Assembly (NCBI GenBank): GCA_025677825.1
Contig: JAIXMO010000066.1
Span: 1-64,000, forward strand
Length of the DNA stretch: 64,000 nt
Source: Helicostylum pulchrum
Taxonomy: Eukaryota > Mucoromycota > Mucoromycetes > Mucorales > Mucoraceae
Direction of reading: 5' to 3'
Shown: piece after piece, positions 24,385 to 27,865 of the stretch
Layout: every line of letters starts with the position of its first letter
Numbering within the stretch: the stretch's first letter is position 1
Translations under genes and position numbers: made by a program
The notes under the pieces: model-generated
The model's input: the letters and a program-made list of their open reading frames with translations, nothing else
What the model was told of the DNA's origin: nothing
Databases searched by the model: none

Positions 24385-25749
24385 TTATTTGGCAATTTCA
24401 ACACCACCGGTAGCACCCAAAACACGCTTGATATCACCATAGATGGCGCTAAAGAAAATAAAATAATTAGTAAATTTGTTTATACCTCACAGGAATTAAA
24501 AACACTTACAATTGACCAGCAGTAAGAGTAGCAACCATAACAACACGAGGACCGAGACCCAAGAAGAGACCCTTAACACCGAGTTGACCAGCCATGGTGA
24601 TGAGACGAGTGGTGAGAGATTCACCAGCGACACCCTTTTGCTTGTTAATCTTGGACAACAAGGTATCAGCAGGTTGGGAAACAATGGCAGCAACGGTACC
24701 AGCAACAATACCGGAACCAAGGTTAACAGTGGTCATAGTAGAGGGAGAAAGTTGATCCTTGGTCTTACCCATTTGGTTAATGATGAGTTCACTATAATGA
24801 TAATTGGTTAAAATACAAGGCAAACACAAATATACACACACATTTATACACTTTTTTTTCTTTTTTTAAAAAAAAATTAAACTTACGTGGTACGTTCGAA
24901 GACAACGAACTTGGCCATGGTATAAGGAACTTGCTTCAACAAGATGGGACCGAAACCAGAGTAGAAACCCTTAACGACACCTTCTTCCTTCAAGATTCTA
25001 GAGAAACCACCGAGGAGACCGGTAGCGAAAGTAGGTTGAGAGACAAGACGAATACGAGTAGCTTCGAGAGGACAGAGAGCAACATCAGCAAAGAATTCGG
25101 CAATAGCAGAAGAACCGAGGTAGATAGCAGTACGGTTCTCAGAAGCCTTCTCAGCACCGAGAACATCGATGGCAGTCTTCTTCCAGAATTCGTAACCACC
25201 GAACTTGAAAGCACCTTGCAAGAAGTAACCAGCAGCAGTGGGACCGAAACCGGTCAACAAAGCACCAGCACCCTCAGCTTGGATAACTTGACGGAAACCA
25301 CCAACCATACCCTAATAATAAATTTATGTTAAAAAAGGGGCGGCCCTTATTTTATTTTTGTTTGCTTCACTCCCACTATATTTTAGTTTACCTTGTTATA
25401 AATCTCGGGAGATAATTGAATTCTGGTCTTAACAACATCAACGGGAGTCTAATAATAATAGAGTAAGTATACAAATTTAAGGATCAATCTTAATTATAAT
25501 AAAAAAAGTTTTGTATATATATAGTGTCGTTATTTACCCTGTTAAAAAAGAAACAAATATTAGTTAGAAACCCTTTTTTATTTAATATGACCAAATATAT
25601 ACTTACATAGCACCGTGAGTGACAGCACAACAGACAGCACCAGCAAGAGCGAAACGAGCGTAGAGAGCGGCACCAGTAGGGGCAGCAACATCACCAGCGG
25701 GAGAAGGAACGATGAAGTTCTTCTTTAAGGAATCTTGAGAGGGGAACAT
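24385..25749 (-). CDS. Mitochondrial phosphate carrier (Mir1/PiC type)
   Basis: Inner-membrane H+/phosphate symporter of the SLC25 family. Exons: 25749-25607, 25538 (one nucleotide), 25448-25392, 25311-24887, 24791-24510 and 24448-24385; 323 aa. Three repeats with the PxDxx(K/R) signature: [19 protein letters not shown] in repeat 1, [14 protein letters not shown] in repeat 2 and [15 protein letters not shown] in repeat 3. THGAM just before repeat 1 matches ITHGAL of yeast Mir1. Without the 1-nt exon the join leaves AT|ACTCCC, which shifts frame and destroys the first signature. Both introns around it (68 and 89 nt) have normal ends. Codons are biased toward C-ending ones, as in highly expressed genes. 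It is convergent with Atg101, 180 bp between stops. Confidence 0.93.
25538..25538 (-). other. Candidate single-nucleotide exon of the phosphate carrier
   Basis: On the minus strand the sequence reads TTTTTTAACAG, then G, then GTAAATAACG. It thus has a strong pyrimidine-tract acceptor and a good donor with one base between. Exon 1 ends CAC GGT GCT AT at a perfect GTAAGT donor, and the next coding exon starts ACT CCC GTT GAT after TTATTAG. Inserting G restores ATG ACT CCC and the reading frame of the whole carrier. The alternative is a real or sequencing one-base deletion. Confidence 0.8.
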
Positions 25750-26977: not shown

Positions 26978-27865
26978 ATGGTTATTTCAACTGAACGTAT
27001 TTTCATTATCGGTGGTACTGGTAACATTGGTTCCAAGGCTGTACAAGACCTTTTATCCAACAAAGTTGCCTTAACTTTATACGCACGTACACCTAGCAAA
27101 GTTGAAGCCATGTTCCCTCAAAGCCAAAATTCGATTAATATTGTTGAAGGAGACCTTATCGATTTAACTTCTTTTAAACAATCAATCAAGGGCCATACTC
27201 GTTTATTCCTATTACTTACCAACTTTAACGGATTTGCTCAAAAAAAGAAAGAAATAGCTCAAATCGCATATGAAGCTGGTGTAAAGCAAATTGTCGATAT
27301 TTCGTCGTTTACTGTCAATTTGGGTTGGAGAACCAGTTACATTGGTACCACTCATTTTGATGCTGAAAAAGCTATTTATGATCTCCCCAATCGTGGTAAA
27401 TTTGTTGCTTTGCGTCCTGGTAGATTTATGACCAATGCGCTTATGGCTGATCGCCCCTCTGCTGATAACAAGATTTTCGATTCAGTCGATGCTGATTCTC
27501 GTTATGGATATATATCTACTAATGATATTGGAGCTGTTGCAGCAGTTGTGTTGACTGAGGATATTGAAAAGCATGCTGACTCTGTTTATAGTTTAACCGG
27601 TGATATGGTCTCTCCAAATCAACGTGCTCAAATTGTCTCCGACATTGTCGGTCGTCAAATCAGCTATCAACAAATTACTGCTGCTCAAAAATACCATATT
27701 ATTATGGGACTTGGTCATTACGATCATCGTATGGCTATGGACCTTTGTGGTCCTTTGAGTAGCCCTGATACCTCTGCAGTAACACCTGAAATCTCTATTT
27801 TGTTAGGAAGAGAACCTGAAACTTTGAAAGAATTTCTTAATGCTAACAAGTCTGCCTTCTTTTAA
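26978..27865 (+). CDS. NmrA-like / atypical short-chain NAD(P)-binding protein
   Basis: Single exon, 295 aa, start ATG 26978 (the open frame upstream is AT-rich leader). The N-terminal dinucleotide-binding motif IFIIGGTGNIGSKAV (GGTGxIG) is followed by ALTLYARTPSKVEAM, typical of NADPH-preferring NmrA/QOR2-like proteins with an Arg after the second strand. GDLIDLTSFKQSIKG follows. KQIVDISSF and FVALRPGRFMTNAL fit the catalytic and substrate region of this atypical SDR family, which often lacks the YxxxK pair. It is likely a redox sensor or quinone/azoreductase-like enzyme; the substrate is unknown. Confidence 0.8.
   Translation: MVISTERIFIIGGTGNIGSKAVQDLLSNKVALTLYARTPSKVEAMFPQSQNSINIVEGDLIDLTSFKQSIKGHTRLFLLLTNFNGFAQKKKEIAQIAYEAGVKQIVDISSFTVNLGWRTSYIGTTHFDAEKAIYDLPNRGKFVALRPGRFMTNALMADRPSADNKIFDSVDADSRYGYISTNDIGAVAAVVLTEDIEKHADSVYSLTGDMVSPNQRAQIVSDIVGRQISYQQITAAQKYHIIMGLGHYDHRMAMDLCGPLSSPDTSAVTPEISILLGREPETLKEFLNANKSAFF

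Follow-up and report, generated by a model that had tools for sequence, protein, structure and literature searches.

Can the spliceosome keep a single base as an exon of its own? The question is raised by a carrier gene of Helicostylum pulchrum lying within the 64,000-nucleotide stretch of DNA that was analysed here as a whole (the window). The gene runs on the minus strand from an ATG at 25749 to a TAA at 24385, and 323 residues are encoded once five introns are spliced out to leave six exons. The protein holds three Mito_carr repeats (PF00153, E 8.7e-47), and mitochondrial phosphate carriers (SLC25A3/MIR1) are among its best named relatives in the matches listed by a protein search; both results bear out the first-pass annotation, which had called it a mitochondrial phosphate carrier. 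A search of solved structures with the same protein returned distant carriers only. The features of the gene, in transcript order, are as follows.

25607..25749, minus strand: exon 1, 143 nt, coding; its last bases are GCTAT, in which AT starts the split ATG codon 48, and it meets GTAAGT
25539..25606, minus strand: intron A, 68 nt, GTAAGT...TAACAG, with CTAAC 25-29 bases upstream of its end
25538..25538, minus strand: putative one-nucleotide exon, G, third base of ATG codon 48
25449..25537, minus strand: intron B, 89 nt, GTAAAT...TATTAG
25392..25448, minus strand: exon 3, 57 nt, 19 residues, opening ACTCCCGTTGAT and holding the first carrier signature
25312..25391, minus strand: intron, 80 nt
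24887..25311, minus strand: exon 4, 425 nt
24792..24886, minus strand: intron, 95 nt
24510..24791, minus strand: exon 5, 282 nt
24449..24509, minus strand: intron, 61 nt
24385..24448, minus strand: exon 6, 64 nt, including the stop codon

Words such as CTAAC and CTTAC can act as branch sites, and the sequence of intron B has CTTAC 15-19 bases upstream of its end.

The problem lies at the first junction. The 3' end of exon 1 reads ...ACTCACGGTGCTAT and abuts GTAAGT, and the coding exon after intron B opens ACTCCCGTTGATGTTGTT, with the ACT at 25448 encoding Thr 49. When the AT ending at 25607 is joined straight to this ACT, the reading frame shifts and runs into a stop after 85 codons, so the 158 intervening bases are not removable as one canonical intron with the frame intact. 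Inclusion of the G at 25538, which stands between an acceptor and a donor of its own (...TTTTTTAACAG/G/GTAAAT; slashes mark splice junctions throughout), leaves an open frame of 323 residues and a stop. Joins of GT donors to AG acceptors were tried with exon lengths of 1-30 nt and a minimum intron length of 40 nt, and among the combinations tested the conserved THGAMTPVDVVK was produced by one only, namely the 68-nt and 89-nt introns around this G. Other lengths (1-40 nt) for a hidden exon were rejected: no second AG...GT pair leaving at least 40 nt on either side fits within the 158-nt stretch. The locus therefore combines an AG and a GT spaced by one base, a frame that needs that base and workable introns on both sides. 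It differs from a zero-length recursive splice site in having one G between acceptor and donor, which the frame requires. The first-pass annotation had described the AT end at GTAAGT, the ACT start of the next exon, the frameshift on direct joining, the restoring G with its own acceptor and donor, and a pair of introns (68 and 89 nt) that would be normal in this genome; the coordinates and sequence agree on each point, the intron lengths being exact and normal among the inferred introns described below. Its interpretation as a one-nucleotide exon is supported, and from the genomic sequence and the proteins of relatives we put the probability that the H. pulchrum carrier gene has a spliceosomal one-nucleotide exon, with codon 48 composed of AT and a lone G, at roughly 0.92. 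The G at 25538 would accordingly be retained in the mature message.

Whether such a module might arise by chance was judged against 264 kb of background DNA, consisting of the window and 20 stretches of 10 kb from the same genome. The reference introns were inferred from coding potential and splice signals, not from cDNA, and the set is rough; an initial candidate set of 140 introns with broad lengths proved contaminated, and a stricter selection of 69 took its place, or 66 without those of the carrier gene. These 66 have a median of 67 nt, with 58 between 53 and 113 nt. Ranked against them, the acceptor TTCTTTTTTAACAG/G stands at 0.70 and the donor AGG/GTAAAT at 0.68. Among 20,000 dinucleotide shuffles made from the 158-nt stretch, 9.0% contained an AG-G-GT arrangement flanked by 45 nt or more on either side, but only 5 contained one that scores as high. 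Position 25538 also has the top combined splice score: the two strands of the 264 kb hold 1,498 AG-N-GT sites, and no other among them reaches it. Among AT-rich 158-nt segments, the observed score was reached in 1 of 1,275, the sole such site in the 264 kb being 25538 itself. The 264 kb were likewise scanned for micro-exons of 1, 2, 4, 5, 7, 8, 10 or 11 nt that have good splice sites, adjoin short introns and are followed and preceded by coding sequence; 25538 was the sole match.

The nearest relatives agree with the restored frame. The closest protein among the matches listed, from Thamnidium elegans, has 323 residues, differs by 8 substitutions (98% identity) and carries THGAMTPVD intact. 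Three further proteins on contigs of 1,053-1,398 bases are uninterrupted, 323 residues long and also hold THGAMTPVD; contigs so short suggest spliced transcripts of relatives. A public H. pulchrum protein, P0002, has 317 residues, all of them matching, and lacks solely VTHGAM, the six residues at this junction. It can be obtained from the window DNA by one join only, GCT/GTCACT to TATTAG/ACTCCC, which bypasses the G and uses a cryptic donor of -0.6 bits, lower than all 66 inferred donors. The public model is thus probably wrong at this junction. The contig of P0002 measures 139,156 bases and that of the window 150,574, from which it follows that the two assemblies differ. The genomes of H. pulchrum KT1b and Mucor flavus KT1a were sequenced with PacBio HiFi and annotated with Funannotate, RNA-seq being unmentioned (PMC11385716), and the names suggest that P0002 and P0007 derive from the KT1b and KT1a assemblies, respectively.

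The most serious alternative is that a G is missing from the assembly at an exon boundary, the true sequence being AG/GACT or ATG/GTAAGT, so that a single ordinary intron of 158 nt is removed. Either added G gave the correct protein with one canonical intron in the two hypothetical sequences tested, introns of 158 nt or longer do occur (4 of the 66 inferred), and relatives seem to have AG/GACT, from which an assembly minus one G would look like that of the window. P0002 would be impossible, however, if the exon started with GACT. A true ATG/GTAAGT would permit it, yet a strong in-frame donor would then have been passed over for the -0.6-bit cryptic one. With a lost G, the AG-G-GT module would also have to be a chance event, at odds of about 5 in 20,000. 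Further, the KT1b genome, in which P0002 appears to originate, was built from PacBio HiFi data (PMC11385716). Because P0002 lacks six residues exactly here and is obtained from the window DNA only by a join that skips the G, an assembly error is unlikely, and we regard the lost base as a very improbable explanation.

A single intron with non-canonical ends, either ATG/TAAGT...TTAG/ACT or AT/GTAAGT...TTATTA/GACT, would, as far as the sequence goes, be enough to bring back the frame, no second intron being needed. Strong canonical sites are nevertheless present at the right place, and to our knowledge the major spliceosome does not use TA...AG or GT...TA ends, which makes this explanation less credible still than a lost base. 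That the gene is a defunct copy with a frameshift, as the direct join taken alone might suggest, is the least probable of all, given that the remaining exons are all intact, that the protein is so nearly identical to that of T. elegans, and that a genome search with exon 4 found no further close copy, the next two matches having 47% and 46% identity. These two loci, L002 (G000:C1:753946-754332) and L003 (G000:C57:584345-584731), are phosphate-carrier-like duplicates at 46-47% identity over exon 4. They were set aside as paralogues: their first intron lies elsewhere (before PTHSLVTPLD or PTHMLVTPLD), there is none at codon 48, and their motif is TPLD.

The one-base exon thus remains the preferred reading for H. 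pulchrum, and how it would be spliced can be considered from the lengths of the parts. A single base would be too short for splicing factors to occupy both of its sites simultaneously; in their study of Arabidopsis APC11, Guo and Liu likewise argue that simultaneous binding at its two ends is hardly possible for a one-base exon (PMC4674806). Introns A and B are short, and each would most likely be recognised as a unit, the two being excised in succession. If intron A left first, ATG/GTAAAT would remain, a good donor that ranks 0.62 among the 66 inferred donors; if intron B left first, AACAG/GACTCCC would remain, a normal acceptor. Such a stepwise removal, which we infer for introns A and B, would resemble recursive splicing, except that one base is kept instead of zero. 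The computed proteins end at 85 residues if the exon is skipped, at 48 if intron A is kept and at 63 if intron B is kept. Since skipping or retention truncates the protein, inclusion of the G should be close to constitutive, and in a conserved gene without another close copy such splicing should be easily assayed.

The state of this junction was surveyed in the best 47 of 120 listed proteins (P0001-P0047), 43 of which have a named organism. Insertions or deletions at positions 41-57 of the carrier protein of the window were found in nine of the 47, as compared with none near the junction at 67, none near 208 and one near 302. The nine carrier models, P0002, P0007, P0008, P0019, P0020, P0023, P0029, P0030 and P0039, have residues around the first signature missing or distorted. 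They fail in different ways: VTHGAM is absent from the H. pulchrum model; TPVDVVKTR is absent, with M replaced by I, in M. flavus, Rhizopus arrhizus, R. stolonifer and one R. delemar record; additional residues stand upstream of TPVD in the M. bainieri and Mycotypha models; and residues are both replaced and added in those of R. azygosporus and R. microsporus. Some public carrier proteins, then, are incomplete or distorted near the first signature, the junction being one that annotation software was unable to place. P0061 (Apophysomyces), beyond the 47, is likewise odd at this point.

Four of the faulty models, P0008, P0019, P0020 and P0030 (those of M. bainieri, Mycotypha, R. microsporus and R. 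azygosporus), have R immediately before TPVD. An AG/ACT acceptor would give NAG at this codon and never R, and AGG, i.e. AG/G ACT, therefore explains all four. In these species the codon is probably interrupted by a single ordinary intron, the G being the first base of the following exon, and the whole order probably does not share the AG-G-GT module. The first-pass annotation had suggested comparing orthologous genes for conservation of the module; P0002 is consistent with the module, and the four peptides, from which the DNA is read indirectly, imply an ordinary intron. The idea that annotation errors at this place are the mark of a conserved tiny exon was accordingly withdrawn for the species of these four proteins. 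Since models err in four of nine cases without a tiny exon, a faulty model alone proves none. The proteins of T. elegans and M. flavus are compatible with either an ordinary intron or a one-base exon. P0121 (on a 64 kb contig), P0122 (9 kb) and P0123 (1.3 kb), which look Umbelopsis-like by eye, read straight through the junction and carry stray end residues; the genomic DNA of these three seems to be intronless at this codon. A search for orthologous carrier DNA had no match in the viral and prokaryotic collections.

Across the 181 proteins P0001-P0181, 177 of which hold the motif, the position preceding TPVD or TPLD holds L in 126 proteins and M in 43. The proteins with M are mostly from Mucorales and Umbelopsis, grouped by eye, and the ATG codon that is split in H. 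pulchrum may be a mark of this group.

The distribution of these states suggests, tentatively, an origin by intron gain. In the ancestors of the Mucorales, codon 48 would have been split as AT/intron/G ACT, and this arrangement would have received a second intron one base into the next exon, stranding the G in the Helicostylum lineage, with Thamnidium and Mucor flavus perhaps sharing that lineage. If so, living species would show all three conditions, i.e. no intron (Umbelopsis-like), one intron and a one-base exon. Another history also fits, in which a G was lost from the exon start and a cryptic AGGGT was adopted; base loss followed by adoption of a cryptic AGGGT is what Nelson and Syed propose for Fusarium (PMC12940212). 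The Mycotypha peptide ...FNR/TPVD fits TTYAAYAG/G, which resembles the TTTTTTAACAG/G of intron A, and weakly favours intron gain over base loss. An origin of intron B as a copied intron was rejected: a genome search with it found no second copy, its sole match being itself. Neighbouring lineages seem to hold the prior states, and the birth of a one-base exon may consequently be traceable.

One-base exons are better documented than the first-pass annotation had allowed. It took them to be rarely reported and mentioned a single Arabidopsis case; published examples include APC11 and VPS55 of plants, Fusarium CYP621A and organellar genes. A close parallel is CYP621A, whose authors call theirs the first one-base exon in a fungal gene (PMC12940212). 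It shares with the carrier a nuclear fungal setting, an AG-G-GT core and a base required by frame and by a conserved motif, and its combined intron, at 139 nt roughly double the usual length, is comparable to the carrier interval. It differs in belonging to Ascomycota and to a P450 of unknown role, whereas the carrier is a conserved protein of Mucoromycota, and its junction was confirmed by SRA reads and is conserved in 20 orthologues (PMC12940212), whereas the carrier exon is predicted from DNA and its conservation can be read only in part from the peptides of relatives. Arabidopsis APC11 has a constitutive, frame-required one-base exon with a proposed stepwise removal of introns, as suggested for the carrier; it is a plant gene, the base is A, the interval is 422 nt and reporter constructs were tested (PMC4674806). 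The plant VPS55 and APC11 microexons are, like that of the carrier, absent from reference annotations and located in conserved genes with good donors, but are supported by RNA-seq and RT-PCR (PMC8831610). A single base between two introns also occurs in fungal rnl, which is organellar and has group II rather than spliceosomal introns (PMC12308204), and in placozoan cox1, again an organellar gene (PMC5436844).

No one-base exon of Mucoromycota was among the matches listed in the literature on one-base exons and microexons, which mostly excluded subscription papers and bioRxiv. Within the literature searched, one other nuclear fungal gene has a one-base exon, and the carrier would be the first case from Mucoromycota; the stepwise history of its exon could be new. 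It would illustrate how short a stretch of message splicing is able to retain, and account for the trouble that gene-finding software has with this gene.

The carrier gene adjoins an NmrA-like gene that is uninterrupted and lies at 26981-27865 on the plus strand. The corresponding protein cluster has five members on two contigs, one of them that of the window, as would be expected if this species had been assembled twice.
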